Source: Saccharibacillus sacchari DSM 19268
GTDB lineage: Bacteria > Bacillota > Bacilli > Paenibacillales > Paenibacillaceae
Direction: 5' to 3'
Assembly (NCBI RefSeq): GCF_000585395.1
Contig: NZ_KK073875.1
Coordinates: 2,151,030-2,215,029 of the forward strand
DNA: 64,000 nt
In this document: positions 14,535-28,057 of the stretch, in pieces
How positions within the stretch are numbered: position 1 is the stretch's first letter
Layout of the letters: each line of letters starts with the position of its first letter
The notes under the pieces: generated by a model
What the model was told of the DNA's origin: nothing
Seen by the model: only the letters and a program-made list of their open reading frames with translations
Databases searched by the model: none
Program-made: the position numbers and the translations under genes

Positions 14535-15239
14535 TCATTCTTGAGCAAGGAAGCGGTATCCGACTCCAGGTTCGGTTACGATCAGGCGCGGCTGGGAAGG
14601 ATCTTCCTCCAACTTTTTGCGCAGATGGCCGATGTAGATCCGCAAGTAATGGCTATCTCCTTCGTCATGCTGGTTTCCCCACACCTGCTGAAGCAGCTGG
14701 CGCTGCGTCACAACCTTACCCGCGTTGGACGCCAAAGCCTTGAGCAGATCGTATTCCGTCGGCGTCAGCTTGATCCGCTCCCCGCCGGATTCGACGATGC
14801 GCTGAGCGAGATCGATGGTCAGCGTTCCGCTGCGAATGACCGGCTCCTCTGCCGATTTGGCCGTATGGCGCAAAGCTACGCGGATACGCGCCACCAACTC
14901 CCCCATGCCAAACGGCTTGGTTACATAATCGTCCGCTCCTGCGTCCAGGGCAGCAATTTTGTCTTCTTCCCGATCCTTCGCCGTGAGCACAATGACAGGG
15001 ATGCCCGACCAGTCCCGAATACGCTCCAATACTTCCATCCCTGTCAGATCCGGCAGACCCAGGTCCAATACGATCAGATCGGGATGAACCATGGAAGCTT
15101 GCAGCACGCCTTCTTGTCCCGTCTCCGCCTCATGTACGGAATAGCCGTGCGCGGCCAGCGTGACTTTTAACAGCTTCCGAATTTGCGGTTCGTCATCCAC
15201 AACCAAAATCCGCGCTCCCGCCGTCGTTTCATTCGCCAT
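14535..15239 (-). CDS. kdpE: Potassium two-component response regulator
   Basis: A 234-residue OmpR-type regulator. The receiver domain has the acidic pair in VVDDEPQIRK, phospho-acceptor Asp in LIVLDLGLPD, and the Lys in VTKPFGMGEL; the C-terminal winged helix ends with GVGYRFL. It overlaps the 3' end of kdpD by 11 bases, so the two are translationally coupled. KdpE activates the kdpFABC operon, here divergent about 3 kb away. Phosphorylation comes from KdpD. A T-rich candidate KdpE site lies upstream of the kdp structural genes. Confidence 0.94.
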   Translation of the reverse strand: MANETTAGARILVVDDEPQIRKLLKVTLAAHGYSVHEAETGQEGVLQASMVHPDLIVLDLGLPDLTGMEVLERIRDWSGIPVIVLTAKDREEDKIAALDAGADDYVTKPFGMGELVARIRVALRHTAKSAEEPVIRSGTLTIDLAQRIVESGGERIKLTPTEYDLLKALASNAGKVVTQRQLLQQVWGNQHDEGDSHYLRIYIGHLRKKLEEDPSQPRLIVTEPGVGYRFLAQE

Positions 15240-17949
15240 CTGTTTTCCCCTTTTCCTCGTACGCTTCCTTTACGTCTTGCGACTTCCTGCTTGTATCGGA
15301 TACCGACAGCTCAGGAAGCGGCAACGAAATCAGGACGATCGCCCCATCTTTTCCGTCCGTTCGGGATGCGGCCGATATCTCTCCGCCATGCAGGTCCACG
15401 ATGCCTTTGCAGATCGCCAGACCCAGTCCCGTACCGGATACGTGCCGGGTCGAGTTGGATCGGTAGAACTTTTCGAATACGCGCTGCTCTTCGCCCGATG
15501 GCAGACCCGGCCCTTCATCCGAAATGCTCAGTACCAGCCGATTCCCGGTTGCCCGCGCTGCAATGCCGATCTCGCTGCCGTCCGGACTGTATTTGATCGC
15601 ATTGCCCAGCACATTGCCCAATACCTGCTCCAGCAGCACCTCGTCCCCGCGCACCATCGGCAGATCATCCGGCAGATCCACGGTAATCTTGCGGCGACCG
15701 CGAATATCCCGGATCTGCGCCAATGATACACCGATGAGATCCTGAATATCGCACCATTCCCGCCGCAATTGCAGCATGCCGCTCTCCAGCCTCACCATGC
15801 CGAGCAGATTCTGCACCAGGCGGCTCATGCGCATGGCCCCGCTGCGAATCGTCTCGAGCAACTCCATCCGGTCCTGCTTGGAAAAAAGTTCGTCATTCTC
15901 GATCAATCCGGTTGCCGATCCGATCACCGCAGCCAGCGGCGTGCGCAGCTCGTGCGACACCGAATCGAGAATGGCCGACCGCAGGCGTTCCGATTCGGCA
16001 GTCAGATGCGCCAGCTTGGCCTCCTCGGCCAGCTTGAAGCGCGCAATGGCCGCAGCAGCCAAGCCGCACAACGCCGCAAGCAGGCGCTGCTGTTCGTCCG
16101 TGAGCGTCTTTTTGGGCGGATGTTCGCCTTGAGCCAAACGAACCACCAATACTCCGTAAGTTCGATCTTCTGTCCGAAGCGGCAGATAACGTCCCGGCAG
16201 CTCGCGCAGCGTATGCGAACCTTGTCCGGCTTCCTCGCCTTCTTCGTAAACCATGCGCACCACAACTTCCTCTTCCCGCACGCGCTCGCCGCTGTCAATC
16301 GCTTCCGCCGAAGAGACATGCACGCGGCGAAGCGCACCGGATTCGTCCGGCAAATAGACCGCCGTCTCGGCACCGATCGTTTGCGACAATTGCTTGGTCA
16401 CGCCGTCGAGCAGGGAAGACACATCCGATACGGCGCCGATCTGCTGACTGAATGCGTACAGCGAGGCGGTATGAGCTTCGCGCTGATGCGCCTGTACGGC
16501 CTGACGCTTAAGCCTCTCGGCCATACTTGCGGTCAGACCCGCTACCGATAGATAAACGCCGAACGAAATGAGATAACGCAAATCCGAGACCGTGAAGCTC
16601 AACTGCGGTGCAACGAAGAAAAAGTCAAGCGCCAACACGCCGATCCCCGCCGCGAAAAGAGCCGGGCCGAGTCCGCCGTATACGGCGCTGAGCAGAACCG
16701 GGAACAAGTAGATCAACGCGATATTCACGATCTCCAGCTCGTCCGCGTACCGGCTCATGACAAGCGTCAACACGACGGTCAGCAGCGTGATGAGTCCATA
16801 CGCGGACCACCGCGGCAGCGCTCTCGACTTCAGGCTGGCGCTCGAATGATGCCGCACGCTCCGATCTGGCAGCGAATCCCGGGTCTGTCCGCTATTAGGC
16901 ACGACCCGTATATGAACGTCCCGACTCGCCCGGACTAACTTCTCGGCCAACGTGGCGCCCCGGCGCATACCGAAACGCGGACGAATACTTTCACCGACGA
17001 GAAGCTGCCTCACATGATGCTGCTCCGCGAAGCGCAATAGCTCGCCGGCCACATCCGTTCCCTCGATCACGCTGACCTGCGCGCCCAGTTCTTTGGCCAA
17101 TCGCAAATTCCGTTCGGGTTCTCCCTGCCTCTGAACGCCGGTGCCGATAGCGCCTTCCGGAACACGCACATAGACCGCGAACCAGCCTGTTTTAAGCGCC
17201 GCCGCCGTTCGTCTTCCGATCCGAAGCAGCTCCTCCGTGGAAGGCGCCGGCCCGATCGCCACCATGACCTTTTCCGCAACCGGCCAGGGACCGGCGATTC
17301 CTCCTCCTGCTGTGCGTCGGCCGTGCAAATAATCGTCGAGATGGCTGTCCGTGCGCTCGGCGGCATATCGGAACAGCATTTCACGCATCGCGGATAACGC
17401 GCCGACTTCCGACGGACTTTGTCCGCTGCGGCGGATCATCTCCTCCGGCGGGGCATCGGCGATGCGCAGCGTATCGGCTTGCTCGACGAAAGCATCCGGA
17501 ACGGTCTCCGGCAGCGCTTGCCCGAGTATCCGGCTTGCCAGTGCGTTCAAACTCTCCACATGTCCCACATTCAGCGCCGCATACACGTCGATTCCGTTCA
17601 ACAGCAACGCTTCGACATCCATATATCGTTTGCTGCGCAGCGTTTGCGGCGAATTCCGGGCTTCCAGCCGATCCACGACCACGAGTCCGGGCTTCGTCTC
17701 CATCAGCTGCTCGACGTCCAACTCGCCGCCGCGCTCCGGCGCTCCGGGAAGCCCCGAACCTTTGAGCAGTGCCAGCGTATCGGGATATCTAGCTTCTGCT
17801 CCGGATACCGCGCAGCACACCGCCGTCCCTGCCGCCGCCTCGCGAATCGCCGCGCGGAGCATGGCCTGAGTCTTGCCCGCGCCGGGCGCGGCTCCCATAA
17901 ACAACGTCAATTTGCCTTTACGCAGTCCGTTTCTCTCCAAGTCGCTCAC
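15229..17949 (-). CDS. kdpD: KdpD sensor histidine kinase with diverged N-terminal domain
   Basis: A 906-residue kinase with the full KdpD layout: N-terminal KdpD domain with Walker A GAAPGAGKT (about residue 19), Usp domain (VMVAIGPAPSTEELLR), four clustered membrane segments (about 385-475), GAF-like region, HisKA with SVSHELRTPL (His about 666), and HATPase with N-box NAIKYSPDG and GTGLGLAI. It starts at GTG behind CAGGAG. Oddity: the strongly conserved DELAHTN segment of KdpD is replaced by DRLEARN, so the N-terminal ATP-binding domain is probably altered. In Staphylococcus the Usp domain binds c-di-AMP. It is cotranscribed with kdpE and divergent from kdpFABC. Confidence 0.94.
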   Translation of the reverse strand: MSDLERNGLRKGKLTLFMGAAPGAGKTQAMLRAAIREAAAGTAVCCAVSGAEARYPDTLALLKGSGLPGAPERGGELDVEQLMETKPGLVVVDRLEARNSPQTLRSKRYMDVEALLLNGIDVYAALNVGHVESLNALASRILGQALPETVPDAFVEQADTLRIADAPPEEMIRRSGQSPSEVGALSAMREMLFRYAAERTDSHLDDYLHGRRTAGGGIAGPWPVAEKVMVAIGPAPSTEELLRIGRRTAAALKTGWFAVYVRVPEGAIGTGVQRQGEPERNLRLAKELGAQVSVIEGTDVAGELLRFAEQHHVRQLLVGESIRPRFGMRRGATLAEKLVRASRDVHIRVVPNSGQTRDSLPDRSVRHHSSASLKSRALPRWSAYGLITLLTVVLTLVMSRYADELEIVNIALIYLFPVLLSAVYGGLGPALFAAGIGVLALDFFFVAPQLSFTVSDLRYLISFGVYLSVAGLTASMAERLKRQAVQAHQREAHTASLYAFSQQIGAVSDVSSLLDGVTKQLSQTIGAETAVYLPDESGALRRVHVSSAEAIDSGERVREEEVVVRMVYEEGEEAGQGSHTLRELPGRYLPLRTEDRTYGVLVVRLAQGEHPPKKTLTDEQQRLLAALCGLAAAAIARFKLAEEAKLAHLTAESERLRSAILDSVSHELRTPLAAVIGSATGLIENDELFSKQDRMELLETIRSGAMRMSRLVQNLLGMVRLESGMLQLRREWCDIQDLIGVSLAQIRDIRGRRKITVDLPDDLPMVRGDEVLLEQVLGNVLGNAIKYSPDGSEIGIAARATGNRLVLSISDEGPGLPSGEEQRVFEKFYRSNSTRHVSGTGLGLAICKGIVDLHGGEISAASRTDGKDGAIVLISLPLPELSVSDTSRKSQDVKEAYEEKGKTDGE

Positions 17950-17999
17950 TTACGCTCTCCTGCCCGGCCGACGGCCCTGATTTCATTCCGTGTTTTCAG

Positions 18000-18100
18000 T
18001 ATAAATCACCAGGAGCGGCAATAGCTAAATCCACGCCTGCAAAACCGCATAAAAAAGGTATAAAGATCTGCTATAAAGGCGTAAAAATAGCGTAAAAATC
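18000..18100 (-). promoter_or_regulatory. Repeated T-rich boxes ahead of kdpD
   Basis: Read on the minus strand, this stretch has TTTTTACGC twice in tandem and then TTTATAGCAGATCTTTATACC-like repeats before the kdpD start. The pairing of TTTATA and TTTTTAC elements resembles KdpE-type sites, so autoregulation of kdpDE is possible. Inference only. Confidence 0.3.
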
Positions 18101-18202
18101 AATAAAATCGAGAGAAAAAGAGCGTATACGGGAATAAACGGAACAATATAGATCTCCAAATTTCAAAAACGATCAAAAAAGAACAAAAATCATCTTTTTT
18201 CG

Positions 18203-18228
18203 CATTTATCTTGTTTTACACCTTTCCG
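18203..18228 (+). promoter_or_regulatory. Candidate KdpE-binding site upstream of kdpFABC
   Basis: CATTTATCTTGTTTTACACC followed by TTTCCGC resembles the T-rich TTTATA...TTTACACC site I recall for Escherichia coli KdpE. It lies about 85 bp before the first small ORF of the kdp operon. No c-di-AMP riboswitch features were seen in this leader. Confidence 0.45.
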
Positions 18229-18310
18229 CTTCGGGACTAAGATACGTCACATGAATCGCGAAGCTTGGACATGTCGCGGTATCCCATCCCAAAGTCAAAG
18301 GAAGGTTAAC

Positions 18311-18418
18311 ATGACCGATATTTTAATGCTCGGCTTGATCGCATTGATGACGCTGGCGGTGCTGGGGCTGTCGCTTTGGTCCGGCAGCGTCGTCAAGGAA
18401 GGACGTGACGACCGATGA
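18311..18418 (+). CDS. 35-residue membrane peptide coupled to kdpF
   Basis: A short ORF with a good ribosome site (AAAGGAAGG, 6 bases before the ATG). Its product is a single hydrophobic helix (LMLGLIALMTLAVLGLSLW, about residues 5-23) followed by a charged tail VVKEGRDDR. The stop codon overlaps the kdpF start (ATGA at 18415-18418), a hallmark of real coupled genes. I do not recognise a family. It may be a second small subunit or stabiliser of the Kdp complex, or a leader peptide that couples translation to kdpF. The size is below the usual gene-calling limit. Confidence 0.7.
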   Translation: MTDILMLGLIALMTLAVLGLSLWSGSVVKEGRDDR

Positions 18419-18495
18419 TCGCAGTGCTTGCCGGCGTCGTCGCCTTATTGTTTTTGTATCTCTGCTACGCCCTGATCAACCCGGAAAAGTTCTAG
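18415..18495 (+). CDS. kdpF: KdpF, small subunit of the potassium ATPase
   Basis: A 26-residue peptide consisting of one membrane helix and ending in CYALINPEKF, matching the C-terminal signature of KdpF (YALINxExF). KdpF stabilises the KdpABC complex at the membrane. The ATG overlaps the stop of the preceding 35-residue ORF, and kdpA follows 19 bp later with its own GGAGGG site. Confidence 0.9.
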   Translation: MIAVLAGVVALLFLYLCYALINPEKF

Positions 18496-18514
18496 TACAA
18501 ATGGAGGGAATTTC

Positions 18515-20185
18515 GTGACCACAATCAGTATCCTCGCAATAGTCGTCACCCTGCTGATCGTCGTGCTTCTGGCGAAGCCGGTCGGCCTGTACCTGGCGGC
18601 GGCGTTCGATTACGCGCCGAACCGGCTGAACCGGATTTACGGTCCGGTCGAACGGATCATTTATAAAATCAGCGGCATCCGCGAAGACAATCAAAGTTGG
18701 AAAATGTACGCGGCGTCGCTGATCGGCAGTAACGCCGTCATGATCTTGATCGTGTACCTGGTGCTCCGTTTTCAAGGCATGCTGCCGCTCAATCCGGCGG
18801 GGATCGCCAACATGGAGCCGTCGCTCGCTTTTAACACCGCAATCAGCTTCATGGCCAACACCGACTTGCAGCATTACAGCGGCGAAAGCGGCGTCTCGTA
18901 CCTGTCGCAAGCCAGCGTGCTGGTGTTCGCGATGTTCGTGTCGCCCGCGACCGGCCTCGCGCTCGTCATGGCGTTCATTCGCGGCCTGACGGGCAAAGCG
19001 GCGGGCAACTTTTTCGTCGACCTGATCCGCGGCCTGACCCGCGTCCTGCTGCCGGTCGCGTTCGTCTCGGCGCTGCTGTTCGTGTTTATGGGCGTTCCGC
19101 AAACGTTCGAGCCGGCTGCGACCGCAACCACGCTAGAAGGCGCGCAGCAGACCATCGCCCGCGGACCGATCGCTTCGTTTCTTGCGATCAAAGAAGTCGG
19201 CAATAACGGCGGCGGCTTCCTCGGCGTCAACTCGGCGCATCCGTTCGAGAATCCGAGCGGCTTGAGCAATCTGCTGCAAATCCTGCTCATGATGTTAGTG
19301 ACCTCGGCGCTGCCTTTTGCTTACGGCAAAATGGCCGGTTCGATCAAGCAAGGCCGCGTGCTGTTCGTGTCCATGCTGATGATGCTCATCATCATGACGA
19401 CCCTCTCGCTCACTGCGGAAAGCGCGGGCAACCCGGCGCTGAACAATCTCGGCATCCAGCATGAGCAAGGTTCGATGGAAGGCAAGGAAGTCCGCTTTGG
19501 CGAAGCGCAGTCGGCCTTCTACTCCGTGATTACAACAGCCGCCGAGACGGGCGCGGTCAACACGATGCACGATACGCTGACCCCGATCGGCGGCATGGTC
19601 CCGCTGGCGAACATGATGCTCAATACCGTGTTTGGCGGCATGGGCGTAGGCTTTGTCAACGTTCTGATGTACGCGATCATCGCCGTGTTCCTGTCCGGTC
19701 TGATGGTCGGACGCACGCCGGAATTCCTCGGACGCAAGATCGAAGGCAAAGAAATGAAGCTGATCGCCGTCACGCTGCTTGTCCAGCCGTTCCTGATTCT
19801 CGTTCCGACCGCGATCGCGCTGGCGACGAATCCGGAAACGATCTCCAATCCCGGGTTTCACGGACTCACTCAAGCGCTGTACGAGTTCACGTCGGCCGCG
19901 GCCAACAACGGCTCCGGGTTCGAAGGGTTGGGCGACGCGACGACGTTCTGGAACGTCTCGACCGGCATCGTCATGTTCCTCGGCCGCTACATCTCGATGG
20001 TAACGCTGCTTGCCGTGGCCGGTTCGCTCGCCGCCAAAAAGCCGATCCCGGAATCGTCCGGCACGTTCCGCACCGATACGGCGATGTTCGGCGCGGTATT
20101 CGTCGGCATCGTGCTGATCGTCGGCGCGCTGACGTTCTTCCCGGCGCTGGTGCTGGGCCCGATCGCGGAACAACTGACCTTATAA
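18515..20185 (+). CDS. kdpA: Potassium-transporting ATPase, K+-selective subunit
   Basis: A 556-residue, about ten-helix channel-like subunit. Selectivity-loop signatures are visible: NTDLQHYSGE, NNGGGFLGVNSAHPFENP, TGAVNTMHDT and NNGSGFEGL. Start is GTG behind GGAGGG. KdpA takes K+ from outside and passes it through the tunnel to KdpB. Second structural gene of the operon after kdpF; 46 bp precede kdpB. Confidence 0.97.
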   Translation: MTTISILAIVVTLLIVVLLAKPVGLYLAAAFDYAPNRLNRIYGPVERIIYKISGIREDNQSWKMYAASLIGSNAVMILIVYLVLRFQGMLPLNPAGIANMEPSLAFNTAISFMANTDLQHYSGESGVSYLSQASVLVFAMFVSPATGLALVMAFIRGLTGKAAGNFFVDLIRGLTRVLLPVAFVSALLFVFMGVPQTFEPAATATTLEGAQQTIARGPIASFLAIKEVGNNGGGFLGVNSAHPFENPSGLSNLLQILLMMLVTSALPFAYGKMAGSIKQGRVLFVSMLMMLIIMTTLSLTAESAGNPALNNLGIQHEQGSMEGKEVRFGEAQSAFYSVITTAAETGAVNTMHDTLTPIGGMVPLANMMLNTVFGGMGVGFVNVLMYAIIAVFLSGLMVGRTPEFLGRKIEGKEMKLIAVTLLVQPFLILVPTAIALATNPETISNPGFHGLTQALYEFTSAAANNGSGFEGLGDATTFWNVSTGIVMFLGRYISMVTLLAVAGSLAAKKPIPESSGTFRTDTAMFGAVFVGIVLIVGALTFFPALVLGPIAEQLTL

Positions 20186-20231
20186 CCCGGAACGCTTATA
20201 CACCTCACACACGGAATGGAGACGCTGATTT

Positions 20232-22262
20232 ATGGATAAGAAAAAGACCATGCTGAGCGGCGAGATTGCGAGCGCCGCTTTGCGGGAGTCGTTCGTGAAA
20301 CTCGACCCGCGCATCATGATGCGCAACCCGGTCATGTTCGTCGTCGAGATCGGTTTTCTGGTCACCCTGCTGCTGTGCTTCGTGCCGGACGCGTTCGGCG
20401 GCACCGTGCCGCGTTGGTTCAACATCGTCACGACGGTCATCTTGCTGCTGACGCTGCTGTTCGCCAATTTTGCCGAAGCGCTGGCGGAAGGACGCGGCAA
20501 AGCGCAGGCCGATTCGCTCAAAAAAACCAAGCAGGACATCAGCGCCAATAAAGTCTCGAGCAGCGGCGCAATCAAAGTCGTACCCGCCTCCGAGCTGCGC
20601 AAAGGCGACTTCGTCGTCGTGGAAGCCGGCGAACTGATTCCCGGCGACGGCGAAGTGGTCGAAGGACTCGCTTCCGTCGATGAATCGGCGATCACGGGCG
20701 AATCCGCTCCGGTCATCAAAGAAGCCGGCGGCGACTTCAGCTCCGTTACGGGCGGCACGAAAGTCGTCAGCGACAAGATCAAGGTCCGCATTTCCGCAGA
20801 TCCCGGCGAATCGTTCCTGGATCGCATGATCTCGCTCGTCGAAGGCGCGAAGCGTCAAAAAACGCCGAACGAAATCGCGCTGAATACCGTGCTGGTCAGC
20901 CTGACCCTGATCTTCCTGATTGTCGTCGTCACCCTGCCGTTCCTGTCGGACTTCCTCGGCATCCAAATGGAAATCCCGATCTTGATCGCCCTGCTCGTCT
21001 GCCTGATTCCGACCACCATCGGCGGCCTGCTCTCCGCGATCGGCATCGCGGGCATGGACCGGGTCACGCAATTTAATGTACTCGCCATGTCCGGTAAAGC
21101 GGTCGAAGCGTCGGGCGACATCAACACGATCATTCTCGATAAAACAGGCACGATCACCTTCGGTAACCGGATGGCGAGCGAATTTGTTCCGGTCAAAGCA
21201 ATCCGCGAAGAAGAAACTGCCTATTGGGCGGCAATCAGCTCGCTCAAAGACGAGACGCCGGAAGGACGCTCCGTACTGGAATTGATGAAAAAGAACGGTT
21301 TTCCGTACGACGAAAAGCTCGGCGAAGGCGGCGAGTTTATCGAATTCCAAGCCGAGACCCGCATGAGCGGCATCGATCTGCCGGACGGACGCCAAGTGCG
21401 CAAAGGCGCGGTCGACTCGGTGAAGCAGTGGGTCCGCTCGCAAGGCGGTTCGGTGCCGGACGATCTGGACGACGGCAGCAGCGCGATCGCCACGGCAGGC
21501 GGCACGCCGCTGGCCGTGGCGGTAGACAACCGGATCTACGGATTGATCCATCTTAAAGACACCGTGAAGCCCGGCATGCGCGAACGGTTCGAACAGATGC
21601 GCCGCATGGGCATCAAGACGATCATGTGTACCGGCGACAATCCGCTGACGGCGGCGACCATCGCCCGCGAAGCGGGCGTGGACGACTTTATCGCCGAAAG
21701 CAAACCGGAAGACAAGATCGCCGTGATCCGCCGCGAGCAGGCCGAAGGCAAGCTTGTCGCCATGACCGGCGACGGCACGAACGACGCGCCCGCGTTGGCG
21801 CAGGCCGACGTCGGCATCGCCATGAACAGCGGCACCGTCGCCGCCAAAGAAGCGGCCAACATGGTCGATCTGGATTCCGACCCGTCGAAAATCATCGAAG
21901 TGGTCGCGATCGGCAAGCAGCTGCTCATGACGCGCGGCGCGCTGACCACGTTCAGTATCGCCAACGACGTCGCTAAATATTTCGCCATCATTCCGGCGAT
22001 GTTCATGGTCGCCATTCCGCAGATGCAGACGCTGAACATCATGCGGCTTGATTCGCCGCTGTCGGCGATCCTGTCCGCGTTGATCTTCAACGCGATCATT
22101 ATCCCGCTGCTGATTCCGCTCGCGATGAAAGGCGTCGCCTACAAGCCGATGAGCACCAGCCGCTTGCTCGGCAAAAATCTGCTGATTTACGGCTTCGGCG
22201 GTCTGGTCGCCCCGTTTATCGGGATCAAATTGATCGATCTTGCGGTGCAGGTATTTATCTGA
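20232..22262 (+). CDS. kdpB: Potassium-transporting P-type ATPase catalytic subunit
   Basis: A 676-residue P-type ATPase. Visible motifs: TGES of the actuator domain (about 155), phosphorylated Asp in DKTGT (about 303-307), and the hinge motif [12 protein letters not shown]. KdpB hydrolyses ATP to drive high-affinity K+ uptake through KdpA. The Ser of TGES, the known inhibitory phosphorylation site in Escherichia coli, is kept. A good ribosome site (ATGGAG) precedes the start and kdpC follows 49 bp downstream. Confidence 0.97.
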
Positions 22263-22311
22263 TCCGCCGTTTTTTACCAGTCGCTTCTTATTATAATGGA
22301 GGAATTTACTT

Positions 22312-22878
22312 ATGCGAATCATCTGGATGACGCTGCGCACGACCTTTTCCGTAGCCATCGTCTGCTGCATTATTTACAATATCGCCGTCTGGGCCGTCGC
22401 CCAGGCCGCCGCGCCGGACAAAGCGAACGGCAGCTTGATCGAAAACGCCGAAGGCCAAGTAGTCGGCTCGTCGCTGATCGGCCAAAGCTTCACCGATCCC
22501 GGTTATTTCCACGGCCGCGTGTCGAGCATCGACTATGACGCGAACGGCTCCGGCACGCCGAACTACGCTCCGTCCAATCCCGAGCTGCTGGCCCGGGCCG
22601 AGCAGTCGATTACCGATTGGCAGTCCCAAAACCCGGACGTTCCGGTCTCGGAGCTGCCCATCGATCTGATCACCAACTCCGGTTCCGGCCTCGATCCGCA
22701 TATCAGTCCGGCTTCCGCCGAAGCGCAGGTTCCTCGCGTTAGCGGAGCAACCGGCATCGCGGCCGAAAAGCTGGAGCAGATGATCGCGGAACATACGCAA
22801 GGACGCTCGCTGGGCTTATTCGGCGAACCGGCGGTCAACGTGCTGGAGCTGAATATGGCGGTGCAGGCGGCTCGATGA
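22312..22878 (+). CDS. kdpC: Potassium-transporting ATPase subunit C
   Basis: A 188-residue protein with one N-terminal membrane helix (about 7-28) and an extracytoplasmic domain holding VVGSSLIGQSF, GYFHGRVSS and SGSGLDPHISPASAEAQVPRV-like motifs, all KdpC hallmarks. It raises ATP affinity of the complex. Preceded by TGGAGG. A 484-bp repeat-rich gap separates it from the tandem KdpD gene. Confidence 0.96.
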   Translation: MRIIWMTLRTTFSVAIVCCIIYNIAVWAVAQAAAPDKANGSLIENAEGQVVGSSLIGQSFTDPGYFHGRVSSIDYDANGSGTPNYAPSNPELLARAEQSITDWQSQNPDVPVSELPIDLITNSGSGLDPHISPASAEAQVPRVSGATGIAAEKLEQMIAEHTQGRSLGLFGEPAVNVLELNMAVQAAR

Positions 22879-23362
22879 GCCGGCTCGTTTTGAACGAATC
22901 GGGACGAATATCGGGATCCGGACACGTCCACGCAAGCTGCGCGTGCAAAACGATGCCCTCTATAAGCTGACCGCCGACGCGGGCAGACGCACTTTCCGTT
23001 GCTCCGATAAAAGTCGCTCTGACCGTCGGAATACGCCGCTGCTGAATCTAACGGATTGACATGACGCTTAGCGTACGTACTTGACGCTTTCGAATTTTTA
23101 ACGGATCGAGGTGACGCTTAACCGGTAAAGCAGAGCGTTTTCACGCCTTTTTTCCTGCTTTTGCGCAGCTAAGCGCTTGTACGATCCGTTAAAATTCCAC
23201 GACCCGCCGGATGGGACTTCTAACGGACATGCGATCCTTTAGAGCATAGAGCAACCGCTGGCGGCAATTTCGCTATTTCACTATTTCACTATTTCGCCGT
23301 TTCCCGACATCCCCCGGCATGCCCCGGCACGCCGGACCGCTCAACCGAAAGGAAGAACGACC
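22879..23362. repeat. Gene-free stretch with TAACGGAT...TGACGCTTA repeats
   Basis: Two direct units TAACGGATnGAnnTGACGCTTA (23048-23069 and 23098-23119), one inverted unit (23170-23191) and one degenerate unit (23221-23241). Just upstream of the next gene is an 8-bp tandem repeat CTATTTCA x3 (23273-23296). No convincing gene or terminator. A transcript from kdpFABC may continue through it. Confidence 0.6.
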
Positions 23363-25708
23363 ATGCCCGACTTCAAACGCAAATCGCCGGAAGAAATCCT
23401 GCAATCGATCCACGCGCTCTACACCGGACGGCTCAAGATCATTATCGGAGCCATCTCCGGTTCCGGCAAAACGTACCATATGCTGCGCGACGGCCAAACT
23501 TTAAAAAGTCAAGGCGTCGACGTGGTGCTCTGCGCCGTATCCACCATGCAGCGCCCGGAAACGATGGAGCAGCTGCAAGGGTTGGAGCGCGTCCCGAGCA
23601 TCCATTGGCGGTACGGCGACGGCAGCGAACGCAAAGACCTGGATCTCGACGCCATCCTGGCGCGCAATCCCGAGGTGCTGCTAACCGACGGGCTGGCTCA
23701 TCGCAACCGCCCCGGCGCCGCGAACGCGAACAGACTCGACGACATTCGCTTTTTGCTGGAAAAAGGCATCAGCGTGATCGCCACCGTCAACGTGTACGAG
23801 CTTCAGGGGATCACGGAAATGGCTCGCAAGCTGATCGGCATCGAGGTGAAAGAAACCGTCCCTGCCGACACGCTGGAACTGGCGGACGAGGTGCGGCTGA
23901 TCGACGTCACGCCCGAAGCGCTGCTTGCGCGGATCGAAGACGGCCTGCTCAAAAACATGCCGGACAAAAGCCTGTTCAGCCGCGGCAATATCGGCGTGCT
24001 GCGCGAGCTGACGCTGCGGCTGGTCGCCGAAGGCGTTAACGGATCGCTGCTCAAATACCGCGACGAACAAGGCTACGTGGGCGCTTCCGGCACGGCCGAG
24101 CATATCCTCGTATCCGCGCAATACCATTGGAACGGCTCGATCCATATTCGCCGCGGCCAGCAGATCGCGCAGCGGCTCGGCGGCGAACTGTCGGTCGTCA
24201 CCTTCGTCAATCCAGGCGAAAAGCTCGGACCGGAACGCGAAGAGTTTCGGCGTTCGATCCGCAAGCTGTGCGAAAAAATCGGCGCGACGCTGCACGAAAT
24301 CCATATTCGTTCCAGACGCGACATTCCGCCTACGCTGGTCCGTTTGGCCCTGGAACAAAACGTGTCGCGGATCGTGATCGGACATTCGAACCAAACTCGG
24401 TCGCAGGAGTTTTTCAAAGGCTCGATCGTCGCGGAAATGGTCAAATGCATGCGCAACGTGGACATGTTCGTCGTCGCGGATCGTTCGGCAGGCGGCGGCG
24501 AGCGCATTCTGCCCACGAAACGCAAAGAGCCGCTGCAAGACCCGGCAGGCCCGTATCGGCGGTTGAGCGAAGAGCAGGCGGGACGCAAGATCGAGGAGAT
24601 TACGCGCGGACGGTTCAAAGTCTATATCGGAGCCGCTCCCGGCGTCGGCAAAACGTACACGATGCTGAGGGAAGGCAATATTTTGCGCAAAAAGAACATC
24701 GACGTCGTCATCGGACTGCTGGAAACGCACGGACGCAAAGAAACGCAGGAACAAGTGAGCGAACTGGAACTGGTGCCGCGCGCGGTCGTTCCGTACAAAG
24801 GCGCGCAGCTTCAGGAAATGGACACCGACGCCATCATCGCCCGCGATCCCGAAGTGGTGCTGGTCGACGAGTTGGCGCACACGAACGTGCCGGGCAGCGT
24901 CAATAAAAAGCGGTACGAAGACGTGATCCGTTTGCTGAACGCGGGCATTTCCGTCATTTCGACGCTCAACGTGCAGCATCTGGAAAGCCTGAACGATAAC
25001 GTGGAGCAGCTGACGGGCGTGAGAGTACGGGAAACCGTACCGGATTCGCTGCTGAGTCTCGCCGACGAGGTCGAACTGATCGACGTCACGCCCAAAGCCT
25101 TGCAGGAACGCATGCGGGCAGGACGGATTTACGCGCGGGAAAAGGTGGATCAGGCGCTCGGCAACTTTTTTAAAACGGGCAATCTGATCGCGCTGCGGGA
25201 ACTAGCGCTGCGCGAGATCGCGGACGACGTGGACGAGCGACTGGAGTCGTGGGAGCGGAAAACGTCGCTGCGCGGCCCGTGGCGGCGCGAAGAAGTCATT
25301 TTCGTCGCGGTAACGATGAGCGACAACGCCGAACGGTTGATCCGGCGCGGCTTCCGGATCGCGTACCGGCTTAAAGCCCCGTGGCATGTCTGCTATATCC
25401 CCGACGGCGCATGCGCGATCGAACAGGAACGGGAGCGAATCGAACAGCTTCGGCGCCTGACCCGACGGCTCGGCGGCAGCTTCGATCTCGGCGAACGCGT
25501 TCCCGCAAGAAGGCTGCACGAAGAGCTGCTGATACGAGCGGACGCCAGACGCTGCACGCAGCTGATCGTCGGCCAGTCGCGGCGATCCAGGCTGTACCGG
25601 CTGCTATTCGGTTCGCTTACCCGGAGGCTGCTGCGGACGGCGCGCCATATGGACCTGCTGGTGGTGGCGAGATTCGACCACGCGGCTCAGGTGAAAAAGG
25701 ATGAATAA
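23363..25708 (+). CDS. Tandem KdpD-sensor/Usp protein without histidine kinase
   Basis: A 781-residue soluble protein made of two copies of the KdpD N-terminal module. Module 1 (about 1-385): Walker A GAISGSGKTYH (about 30), the DELAHTN segment altered to DGLAHRN, then a Usp domain (HILVSAQYHWNGS...). Module 2 (about 395-781): canonical Walker A GAAPGVGKTYT (about 423), intact VLVDELAHTNVPGS, STLNVQHLESLND and ETVPDSLL, then a second Usp domain (VIFVAVTMSDNAERL). No membrane segment, HisKA or HATPase. Short kinase-less KdpD proteins occur in some bacteria, but a two-module version is unusual to me. It lies after kdpC and probably modulates KdpDE or the transporter, perhaps by sensing a nucleotide signal. 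Confidence 0.88.
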   Translation: MPDFKRKSPEEILQSIHALYTGRLKIIIGAISGSGKTYHMLRDGQTLKSQGVDVVLCAVSTMQRPETMEQLQGLERVPSIHWRYGDGSERKDLDLDAILARNPEVLLTDGLAHRNRPGAANANRLDDIRFLLEKGISVIATVNVYELQGITEMARKLIGIEVKETVPADTLELADEVRLIDVTPEALLARIEDGLLKNMPDKSLFSRGNIGVLRELTLRLVAEGVNGSLLKYRDEQGYVGASGTAEHILVSAQYHWNGSIHIRRGQQIAQRLGGELSVVTFVNPGEKLGPEREEFRRSIRKLCEKIGATLHEIHIRSRRDIPPTLVRLALEQNVSRIVIGHSNQTRSQEFFKGSIVAEMVKCMRNVDMFVVADRSAGGGERILPTKRKEPLQDPAGPYRRLSEEQAGRKIEEITRGRFKVYIGAAPGVGKTYTMLREGNILRKKNIDVVIGLLETHGRKETQEQVSELELVPRAVVPYKGAQLQEMDTDAIIARDPEVVLVDELAHTNVPGSVNKKRYEDVIRLLNAGISVISTLNVQHLESLNDNVEQLTGVRVRETVPDSLLSLADEVELIDVTPKALQERMRAGRIYAREKVDQALGNFFKTGNLIALRELALREIADDVDERLESWERKTSLRGPWRREEVIFVAVTMSDNAERLIRRGFRIAYRLKAPWHVCYIPDGACAIEQERERIEQLRRLTRRLGGSFDLGERVPARRLHEELLIRADARRCTQLIVGQSRRSRLYRLLFGSLTRRLLRTARHMDLLVVARFDHAAQVKKDE

Positions 25709-25790
25709 ACCGGCGCGCACAGACGCATAAAACTTTTTCATAAGCGGGGCTTTTTCTATTCAAATGGACGCACGAAATGCCGATCTATGT

Positions 25791-25860
25791 AGAGGGAACG
25801 CAATGGGCTGCCTGATGCCGACACTTCCGTCGGCTGGAGGAACGGCTGCATTGCGATGCA
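25791..25860 (+). promoter_or_regulatory. Structured leader of the following unknown gene
   Basis: CGCAATG (25799-25805) pairs with CATTGCG (25849-25855), enclosing a GCCGAC-ACTTCC-GTCGGC hairpin (25817-25834) and a purine-rich GGAGGAACGG strand. The shape is that of a small multi-stem RNA 40 bp ahead of the start codon. It does not match any riboswitch class I know. Confidence 0.4.
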
Positions 25861-25895
25861 AAATACAGGCTGAGCCAAGGAGGAGAACAGGCAGA

Positions 25896-26618
25896 ATGAA
25901 CGAAAGAAAGTTGTCGGGTATCGAGATGTTCGCGTTTGACGTAGTGGAGGAAGCACGGGAAAATGAGCCGCGCAAAACCGTGCGCCGCTACGGTCTGCTC
26001 AAGCTGTCTTGCGGGACCGCCGCCGGATACGGCGTCTGCCTGATCTCCGAAGGCTTTGCCCCGGCCGATCTGGTGCGCTGGAGCACCTGCTTCGGCCGGC
26101 TGCGCGGCCTGACACCGGAAGAAGCGTCGGCTGCTGTCGCGGCCGACCGCTGGGGCGCGCGCGAGCGGCATGCTGAGCAATACGCGCTGCTTCGCCGCGC
26201 GCTAGCCGATCTGCTCGTTGCGCTGGAAGCGCGCCGCGCCGGCGCGCGGCTGCTGCTCGGCCTCGGCGCGGCCGGCCTGCTGGGCGGCATGGCCGCCCGG
26301 GCGTCGGCGCACGGCCCCGACGCTCAGATCGTCTCGGCCGCAAGCAGCCGAGACCTCTCCGGCGGCTATGCGCCGCACCCGCCGGTCCGCTACGCGCCGG
26401 ACGCGGTGCTCCGCGCGGTGCGCGGCGCGGCGGCGACCATGGTCGCCGAACGCGAAGAAGCGCCGACCTCGTTCGTCGGCGCTTCAAGCCCGTCCGGCGG
26501 CAATCCGCAGCCGGACGACAACGACATGCTGCGGCAGCTCTACATCGCTGCCGCGATCGAACGCCCTTCGTCCGATGCGCTCATGGATCGCGCGGACTCG
26601 TATTGCGCGTTTTTCTAA
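25896..26618 (+). CDS. Uncharacterised 240-residue protein downstream of the kdp island
   Basis: I do not recognise the family. The ATG at 25896 follows AAGGAGGAG. The first 80 residues look globular (IEMFAFDVVEEARE, GYGVCLISEGFAPADLVRW). The centre (about 85-135) is extremely Ala/Arg/Leu-rich and locally very high in GC, suggesting a long helix. The C-terminus is polar and ends in YCAFF. No signal peptide. The start of the protein faintly resembles the N-terminal capping strand of enolase-superfamily proteins, which I would not rely on. It is a single gene with its own structured leader and terminator. Confidence 0.65.
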   Translation: MNERKLSGIEMFAFDVVEEARENEPRKTVRRYGLLKLSCGTAAGYGVCLISEGFAPADLVRWSTCFGRLRGLTPEEASAAVAADRWGARERHAEQYALLRRALADLLVALEARRAGARLLLGLGAAGLLGGMAARASAHGPDAQIVSAASSRDLSGGYAPHPPVRYAPDAVLRAVRGAAATMVAEREEAPTSFVGASSPSGGNPQPDDNDMLRQLYIAAAIERPSSDALMDRADSYCAFF

Positions 26619-26693
26619 ACGCCGCAAACCGTTCGAACAAAGGCAAAGTGCTTGGTTTATGCGGCTTCCGACGCATGCGCTGTTTATCCATAC

Positions 26694-26726
26694 AAAACGC
26701 TCCGGCATCTGCCGGAGCGTTTTTTT
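26694..26726 (+). terminator. Strong Rho-independent terminator
   Basis: AAAACGCTCCGGC / GCCGGAGCGTTTT arms around a 3-4-nt loop, followed by T7. Ends the unknown gene; its A run also allows use on the minus strand for the propeller genes. Confidence 0.85.
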
Positions 26727-26785
26727 GATTCGCCATCCGTTTTGCATTGCATGATTGGTTGAAGTTTAAGACGGGATTCGAAACG

Positions 26786-28057
26786 TTACTTCAACGTATA
26801 CGCAGACACGACGTTACTGTCTTCGGCTTCGGCATCATGGACGTACAGCTTGCCTTGTCCCGCATACAGGAACCCGTATTTGTCTTTCCCGTCAGCCGAA
26901 GGCTCCAATTCGACATGATGATTCACGCTCAGGGTTTCCGCGTCCAGCGCGTAAAATTCTCCGCTCGCCGCATTGGACATGACGATTTCTTCATTTGGTG
27001 CTTTGTAAAGGTTGAAATCTGCCTCTTCGAAAGTCTTGCTCGTTTTCAGTTTGTTGTCCGGACCGTAAAGTTCCAACTTCAGGCCGTTTTTAACCAGCAG
27101 GTTCTTGCCTGCTTGAATCGCTACTGCGCCTTTCGGAAGCTTGCGTTCCCAGACCTTTTTGCCTTTGCTGTCGAAGAAGACGAACGTGGTCGATTTTTGG
27201 TGATCGGCAGGGTCGAGGATTTCGACGCCCGGACCTTTGCTTTTCGTTTGCTCGTTCCATTCGAACCCGACCAGCTTGCCCCCGTTGAAGGGGTATACCG
27301 CAGGTCTTGACGCGTTATCCCACGATCGGAAATCGCTCGCTACGGCGGTTTGCTTCAGCAGCGAATACGAGAATGTCGGTTTGCTCAGATTGTTGATGCT
27401 CGGGTACAGTTCCAACTTTTGGCCCATCGTGTCGGCGACTTGACCGTTCGGCAGAACCGCCAGGTTCTTGCTTCCCTTCACCGTGCTCTTTTTCTTTAAT
27501 TTGCCGTCTTTCGCGAAATTATAGACGGTGGTCGTTTTTCCGTCCATCGCTCCCGTGGCCAGCATGATATCTTCGTTAGGCTGGATTTGCAGCGTGCCTA
27601 TAATTTCGACGTCGACGGGCTTGCTCCATTTCAGTTTGCCTTGCGAACTTATCGCATACAGTTTGTACGATTTTTCGTTGTCCTTTTTGGCTGCATAATA
27701 AACGTCTCCGCTGGTCGGGGAAATGATCGGCTGTCCGAACATGCTGATACTTTCCGAATCGCCTTTAAGGTCGTAAATCCAGTTTTTCTTTCCGTCTTTG
27801 CGGTCGAACGACTGAAGCTGCGTGCCGCCGCCTTCCGGCGTATACAGCGTAACGTACAAGCGGTCTTTGGTCGCCTTGCCGAAATCGAACACCCATCCCA
27901 GATCGTGGCCGGAAGGAACGTCGTACGTCCAATCCGCGCTCGGCAATTTGCTTGTCGGTTGCGCCGCTGCGGCAACCGCGCCTCCCGCGTTCAGACTCGC
28001 GCCTACGCCTACCGCCATCGCCATGCCGAGCATCAAAGGTTTGAATCGAAATTTCAT
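26786..28057 (-). CDS. Secreted PQQ-like beta-propeller protein (paralogue 1)
   Basis: A 423-residue exported protein. Signal peptide about 1-30 (KFRFKP, hydrophobic core, AxA before AAQPTSK). The mature part repeats blades of the form LYVxLYT...xLQSFDRKDGKKNWIYDL, LYAISSQGKLKWSK, VFFDSKGKKVWERKL, typical of PQQ_2/WD40-like propellers. No PQQ-binding residues can be judged. The neighbouring gene upstream is a clear paralogue; 31 bp separate them, so this is a tandem duplication in one operon. The start follows AAAGGAGGAGTAACTT. Likely a cell-surface or wall-associated protein; ligand unknown. Confidence 0.78.
   Translation of the reverse strand: MKFRFKPLMLGMAMAVGVGASLNAGGAVAAAAQPTSKLPSADWTYDVPSGHDLGWVFDFGKATKDRLYVTLYTPEGGGTQLQSFDRKDGKKNWIYDLKGDSESISMFGQPIISPTSGDVYYAAKKDNEKSYKLYAISSQGKLKWSKPVDVEIIGTLQIQPNEDIMLATGAMDGKTTTVYNFAKDGKLKKKSTVKGSKNLAVLPNGQVADTMGQKLELYPSINNLSKPTFSYSLLKQTAVASDFRSWDNASRPAVYPFNGGKLVGFEWNEQTKSKGPGVEILDPADHQKSTTFVFFDSKGKKVWERKLPKGAVAIQAGKNLLVKNGLKLELYGPDNKLKTSKTFEEADFNLYKAPNEEIVMSNAASGEFYALDAETLSVNHHVELEPSADGKDKYGFLYAGQGKLYVHDAEAEDSNVVSAYTLK

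Follow-up and report, generated by a model that had tools for sequence, protein, structure and literature searches.

What does a KdpD-like protein do that has two sensor modules in one chain and no histidine kinase? This question is raised by the kdp locus of Saccharibacillus sacchari DSM 19268, which lies in a 64,000-nucleotide (nt) stretch of contig NZ_KK073875.1 (positions 2,151,030 to 2,215,029 of the forward strand), called the window below. The protein, 781 amino acids (aa) long and referred to as the tandem, is encoded on the plus strand at 23363..25708 (ATG at 23363, stop codon at 25706-25708). Each of its modules has a KdpD N-terminal domain (KdpD_N) and a universal stress protein (Usp) domain. 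We consider it probable (roughly 0.62, judged from sequence) that the tandem works in the cytoplasm as a serine kinase which carries a pseudokinase in the same chain and would switch off the KdpFABC pump.

Architecture, distribution and origin of the tandem protein

Pfam family KdpD (PF02702) matches the tandem in two stretches with a total of 521.5 bits. NCBIfam family KdpD_non_kinase (NF038185) also matches in two stretches, with 740.6 bits for the whole protein against a curated cut-off of 550, which is reached only by the sum, as the modules taken singly reach 442 and 304 bits in the genome search. HisKA, HATPase, GAF and DUF4118 had no match in the tandem in the domain-profile scan. It is thus devoid of the dimerization/histidine phosphotransfer (DHp) and catalytic (CA) domains of the KdpD sensor histidine kinase, both of which are present in the adjoining 906-aa KdpD. 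A sequence-only reading of this DNA had described two KdpD_N-Usp modules without membrane, HisKA or HATPase part, which is borne out by these matches; the motifs that it quoted are also correct (GAISGSGKTYH and DGLAHRN in module 1, GAAPGVGKTYT and DELAHTN in module 2).

The KdpD_N domain of module 1 (aa 21-225, 23423..24037) has a Walker A motif GAISGSGKT (23447..23473), in which G-X5-GKT is kept, and a Walker B motif (23687..23692) with the Asp kept and Gly where the catalytic Glu is expected. It is followed by Usp 1 (about aa 244-373, 24092..24481), which carries a QYHWNGS loop and is better conserved than Usp 2. Module 2 comprises a second KdpD_N domain (aa 415-623, 24605..25231) with Walker A GAAPGVGKT (24629..24655) and Walker B Asp502-Glu503 (24866..24871), and Usp 2 (about aa 643-771, 25289..25675). 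The Pfam Usp family matches only in module 2 (646-767); Usp 1 lies within the NF038185 match and shows a Usp fold in the predicted model. A sequence search of Usp 2 alone against solved structures returned only weak Usp matches.

An artefact of fusion or annotation is ruled out, because both domains occur in one open frame in 15 of the 16 Saccharibacillus genomes and because the ratio of nonsynonymous to synonymous substitutions (dN/dS; window tandem against four close relatives, computed per domain) is 0.03-0.17 over the four domains, namely 0.06-0.11 for KdpD_N1, 0.03-0.10 for Usp1, 0.04-0.11 for KdpD_N2 and 0.11-0.17 for Usp2. Separate expression of module 2 from an internal start is unlikely, as codons 371-433 hold a single start-type codon, TTG (401), whose Shine-Dalgarno match is poor (3 of 6 positions, versus 5 of 6 at the ATG). 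Among named matches the tandem is 96% identical to that of S. endophyticus and 94% to that of S. alkalitolerans. There are three PF02702 matches in the whole genome, the two tandem modules and the histidine kinase KdpD.

In this family the tandem is not the unusual protein that it was first taken for. Of 98 family genomes sampled, 66 exceed the PF02702 cut-off, and each of these 66 carries two matches within one frame. A class-wide sample of 151 genomes has 53 over the cut-off, which by frame length and number of PF02702 matches fall into 24 with a tandem, 21 with a single-module protein, 7 with full-length KdpD only and 1 with a partial match. Duplicate loci (L067, L084 and L074, which duplicate L033, L059 and L047), very weak matches (L060) and broken frames (L080) were left out of the tandem counts. 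From these numbers the tandem is a form that occurs regularly among these Bacillota. The double-module form is thus common in this bacterial group, yet we found no description of it in titles and abstracts, which leave subscription journals largely uncovered. The terms 'Two copies' and 'duplicat' are absent from the available main text of PMC11018627, and a mention in its supplements is possible. Database names are mostly 'histidine kinase' or 'universal stress protein' and hide what is likely a post-translational brake on potassium uptake.

The window protein belongs with the known KdpD/Usp proteins that lack a histidine kinase, as a duplicated, asymmetric form. Like the short atypical serine kinase of the D. 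geothermalis type (NF038185, 'KdpD-like non-kinase potassium sensor'), it combines KdpD_N and Usp beside kdpABC, has no transmembrane, GAF or histidine-kinase part, and carries the catalytic residues, here in module 2. It differs in having two modules, the first with the catalytic Glu replaced, and in the predicted pairing of Usp domains within one chain.

In a quick tree of 80 modules, with support from the Shimodaira-Hasegawa-like approximate likelihood ratio test (SH-aLRT), the window's group yields two clades with support of 100 each, one holding its 19 module-1 rows and the other its 19 module-2 rows. The stem leading to module 1 is three times longer than that leading to module 2 (1.07 versus 0.35). 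A second set of tandems, from f6, f15 and a metagenome-assembled genome (MAG) with five rows per module, has both active sites intact, and its two module clades are nearest kin of each other (97). On this tree duplication has therefore happened at least twice, unless gene conversion misleads; L083, a tandem from a cyanobacterium, possibly represents a third event.

Related arrangements were seen in single genomes. In an Acidobacteria MAG (L086:7968-10235), two adjacent single-module KdpD-like genes lie behind kdpC and parallel the tandem, the first with DGLAYDN (catalytic Glu replaced by Gly) and the second with DEFAHTN. One genome (G092) has two kdpABC clusters, each with a tandem (L175 and L176). 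In Bacillus methanolicus PB1 (L047/L074), kdpA (4-130) and kdpB (228-675) are only partly matched beside the tandem and further kdp fragments lie beyond, so that the pump operon looks broken or rearranged.

Kinase and pseudokinase halves

A serine-kinase role of KdpD was published in 2024. According to the available part of that work (PMC11018627), the N-terminal domain of KdpD acts as a serine kinase both in E. coli and in Deinococcus and phosphorylates S162 of KdpB; this phosphorylation in the TGES motif shuts the pump, and the activity of the E. coli protein needs Walker A, W39/R190, D109 and E110. It had been suggested that the tandem was freed from the kinase, which is misleading, as KdpD_N itself is the serine kinase in these organisms and module 2 keeps the catalytic residues. 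Like the E. coli protein, a tandem serine-histidine kinase, the window system has KdpD_N and Usp, a Walker A/B serine-kinase site and a KdpB with TGES. In E. coli KdpD a single module is joined to membrane, GAF and histidine-kinase domains; in the window, the histidine kinase is a separate protein with an altered serine-kinase site.

All of these positions are occupied in module 2 (G-X5-GKT of Walker A, Tyr as the adenine-coordinating aromatic residue at position 39, R190 and D109-E110), while module 1 is without E110. Conservation was counted over the best 120 of 3231 matches. In module 2, K, T, D109, E110 and R190 are present in 120/120, and position 39 is Tyr in 117 and Phe in 3. In module 1, all 120 likewise show K, T, Y39, D109 and R190, but Glu110 is replaced in 117. 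Across the fetched loci, where residues were assigned by alignment, position 110 of module 1 is Gly, His, Asn, Asp, Gln, Ala or Ser; in L196, a tandem that does not belong to the class, this residue is Asp in module 1 but Glu in module 2. Judging from the published mutants, replacement of Glu110 should abolish phosphate transfer and still allow ATP binding. Module 1 thus is apparently a conserved pseudokinase, and module 2, which has every residue known to be needed, is predicted to be an active serine kinase.

The presumed target is present as well. KdpB of the window (20232..22262, plus strand, by family match) has the TGES serine and the preceding Glu. The pattern SA[IVL]TGE occurs in 79 of 85 aligned KdpB pieces, some of them from duplicate loci; five of the other six do not span the site, and the last (L086) reads SVITGES.

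We propose that, when potassium is ample, module 2 would bind ATP and phosphorylate the TGES serine of KdpB, turning off the finished KdpFABC complex. Module 1 would bind nucleotide without transferring phosphate and act as an allosteric or docking half. Usp 1 and Usp 2 would fold together into a pseudo-dimer for sensing a nucleotide, probably cyclic di-AMP (c-di-AMP) before any other and mainly via Usp 1, and the signal would be passed to module 2. Transcription of kdp would be left to a separate device, the divergent KdpD/KdpE here and c-di-AMP riboswitches in relatives.

The histidine kinase KdpD that accompanies the tandem (15229..17949, minus strand) has K-T-Q-D-R-R at the positions of E. 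coli K37-T38-W39-D109-E110-R190. Similar changes occur in the set of 15 full KdpDs that share a genome with a tandem (seven from Saccharibacillus, eight others): 14 are without the aromatic residue at 39, 11 without Glu110, and none has both. Fourteen of these KdpDs come from the genus and family samples, each with KdpD_N, and one is L081; histidine kinases without detectable KdpD_N (e.g. L148, L178) and an extra PF02702 match in five other family genomes (a 269-residue frame in G016, the rest below the cut-off) were left out. Both residues are present in 14 of 16 control KdpDs, which were picked by profile from genomes that lack a tandem. This fits a scheme with one serine kinase per pump. 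In 12 further loci (L148, L150, L152, L159, L161, L178, L053-L058) a histidine-kinase core and KdpE lie near the tandem and KdpD_N was not detected in that kinase; the serine-kinase part seems to be absent there.

These data also bear on the idea that both halves are non-enzymatic and that the protein binds nucleotide or c-di-AMP and clamps the pump without phosphorylation. The ATP-binding residues are indeed common to both halves, and no enzyme activity is on record for any tandem. The Asp, the Glu and the P-loop of module 2 are, however, found in 120/120, and the co-resident KdpDs have lost residues of this very site. As this invariance and this loss argue for catalysis, we regard a mere clamp as rather unlikely. 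If a serine kinase is at work, the architecture sets its role cleanly apart from that of the histidine kinase. Natural point variants are at hand: one chain holds a copy that looks active and another that looks dead, and KdpDs are without the site where a tandem is present. Together they offer a ready system for asking in what way such a kinase is controlled by a pseudokinase half and by paired Usp domains.

Transcriptional control, Usp domains and ligand

Three control set-ups exist among the 15 tandem-bearing Saccharibacillus, and the tandem is kept across all of them. In six (L034, L036, L039, L040, L041, L046), two c-di-AMP riboswitches (RF00379) lie in a row in the kdp leader, the nearer one ending 348-525 nt upstream of kdpA. 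These genomes have no other PF02702 protein, the tandem is no more than about 20 nt away from where the kdpC match ends, and KdpE was not found in the fetched 13-kb loci, the range in which it was sought. Seven, including the window genome, have full KdpD and KdpE and no riboswitch in the stretch searched. The remaining two (G013, G014) have KdpE, no riboswitch and a shortened KdpD, in which similarity begins at residue 378 and the KdpD_N-Usp part is gone. In the window, the kdp leader has no Rfam match to a c-di-AMP riboswitch at the gathering threshold (17500-26800 searched), and none of the four RF00379 matches of the genome falls within the window.

The locus resembles kdpFABC of B. thuringiensis as described in the part of PMC6488665 available, where the pump is accompanied by a KdpD without histidine kinase and riboswitch control is as in the six Saccharibacillus. 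There, the protein has a single module of 365 residues and KdpE is absent, unlike the window with its KdpD/KdpE and no riboswitch. The same source describes riboswitch and KdpDE as mutually exclusive. This holds in the Saccharibacillus loci and is broken in L148 and L070, where 852 and 1437 nt, including other open reading frames (ORFs), separate an upstream riboswitch from kdpA and a histidine-kinase core and KdpE follow downstream. We have therefore not used it as a general argument.

A dedicated pump regulator apart from the histidine kinase, as had been supposed, fits this evidence, but control of KdpD/KdpE as its main role is disfavoured. A sensor or scaffold working through these two proteins could be argued from both being encoded beside the tandem here and from the binding of the Usp protein UspC to E. 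coli KdpD (PMC11018627, available part). Yet the six riboswitch-bearing Saccharibacillus keep the tandem near kdpC with no other PF02702 protein and no KdpE at the locus. Deletion of the truncated single-module kdpD of B. thuringiensis left kdp transcription unchanged (PMC6488665, as far as available), and the invariant kinase residues of module 2 would go unexplained. Such a route is thus decidedly unlikely.

Two related predicted models place Usp 1 and Usp 2 of one chain together, which suggests that they may pack as in the tandem-type universal stress proteins UspE and TTHA0350 and also Rv2623; the difference is that each Usp of the tandem is preceded by a kinase-type KdpD_N domain. As to what this pair would sense, c-di-AMP is a plausible ligand. 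It is favoured by the stimulation of a short Deinococcus KdpD by c-di-AMP (PMC11018627, available part), by two diadenylate cyclase matches in this genome and by the riboswitches around relatives.

Several points weigh against our proposal. Glu110 is kept in module 1 of 3 of the 65 distinct tandems of the group (L050-L052, one subclade) and in 3 of the best 120, and the second tandem lineage has two intact sites, so that a dead module 1 cannot be assumed for tandems in general. Two of the 16 control KdpDs are altered too (L193, L194), 7 of the 15 altered KdpDs come from one genus in a comparison uncorrected for kinship, and four (L163, L165, L166, L170) keep Glu110 and differ only at position 39. 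The model of the window protein is modest, with a predicted local distance difference test (pLDDT) score of 68 and a predicted template modelling (pTM) score of 0.42; the better one (pLDDT 78, pTM 0.67) shows a distant relative, and as most alignment rows are common to both models, they cannot count as independent. Finally, (A/G/C)XSXSX2N(Y/F), the published motif for c-di-AMP binding by KdpD Usp domains of the S. aureus type (PMC8214093, available part; structure 7ji4), was found in neither Usp of the window and in 0 of 175 modules, duplicates included, when searched without its last position. This motif cannot decide the matter, since it is absent from single-module types too.

The missing motif and several Usp-matching structures that hold ATP, AMP or cAMP by title would favour a kinase as proposed that senses ATP/AMP, K+ or a protein. 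We nevertheless consider another ligand improbable in view of the Deinococcus precedent and of the c-di-AMP riboswitches that precede kdp in many relatives and all eight tandems away from kdp (see below). Least of all do we believe that module 1 is a duplication leftover which still folds, as its long stem branch might suggest, given its low dN/dS (0.06-0.11), the columns that are invariant over the best 120 (46 of them in KdpD_N1, 20 in Usp1), and conserved consensus motifs of its own (STMQR, NVYELEG and the nearly invariant QYHWNGS loop). Mean majority-residue conservation in this set is 0.79 for KdpD_N1, 0.755 for Usp1, 0.856 for KdpD_N2 and 0.63 for Usp2. The functions thus seem to be divided, with catalysis assigned to module 2 and the best-kept Usp to module 1.

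Orphan tandems and neighbouring genes

Seven of the 98 family genomes (G016, G034, G058, G068, G077, G087, G096) and Paenibacillus lignilyticus have an extra tandem away from kdpABC (loci L147, L149, L151, L171-L174 and L082). The order on one strand is the same in all eight: DUF445, RF00379 riboswitch, tandem, solute-binding protein, permease and ATPase of the ATP-binding cassette (ABC) type. Families were assigned by Pfam scan in L147, L149 and L082, and in the others by similarity to these. The first in-frame Met codon of the tandem is 143-282 nt behind the aptamer. The scanned transporter subunits resemble glutamine and cystine systems, below the cut-offs of named families.

By alignment, the catalytic residues of module 2 are kept in L147, L149, L151 and L082, and the other four orphans keep the Walker B Asp-Glu. 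Among module-2 columns that are at least 95% conserved in 57 other tandems of the group, 7 of 118 are changed in at least six of the eight orphans, compared with 1 of 86 in module 1. This suggests that the orphans may act on a different substrate. Tentatively, the kinase-pseudokinase of the Paenibacillus group could be a general c-di-AMP-linked switch of uptake, in which the kdp copy would phosphorylate KdpB and the riboswitch-borne copy would control a polar amino-acid ABC transporter. If so, the latter would be, to our knowledge, the first serine kinase of the KdpD type that acts on anything but KdpB; its position beside the transporter makes this directly testable.

At the window locus, the tandem had been placed directly after kdpC. 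It is the next gene, but a gap of 484 nt lies between. The complete histidine kinase KdpD and KdpE at the same locus had gone unmentioned. On the plus strand, kdpA (18515..20185) and kdpC (22312..22878) were assigned by family match, and a 26-residue ORF (18415..18495) is presumably kdpF-like, going by resemblance. On the minus strand, kdpD diverges from the kdpA side, and kdpE (14535..15239) was named from its sequence and its position beside kdpD.

Some further ORFs were observed. A hydrophobic ORF of 35 residues (18311-18418, plus strand) lies ahead of kdpA and overlaps the start of the kdpF-like ORF (ATGA). Many Paenibacillus-type kdp loci have a conserved ORF of about 139 aa upstream of kdpA (L160:2972-3388 and relatives) with only a sub-threshold TrkA_N match. 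Elsewhere in the genome, a 222-residue frame (G000:C1:5777137-5777535) is similar to the Usp part of KdpD_non_kinase (85.8 bits). Right behind the tandem, a gene for 240 aa (25896-26618, plus strand) has a good ribosome-binding site and no Pfam match; similar sequence, partial in some cases, follows the tandem in each of the other eight loci fetched from the Saccharibacillus clade that has KdpE, and a small ORF upstream of kdpA in L148 shows weak similarity to it.
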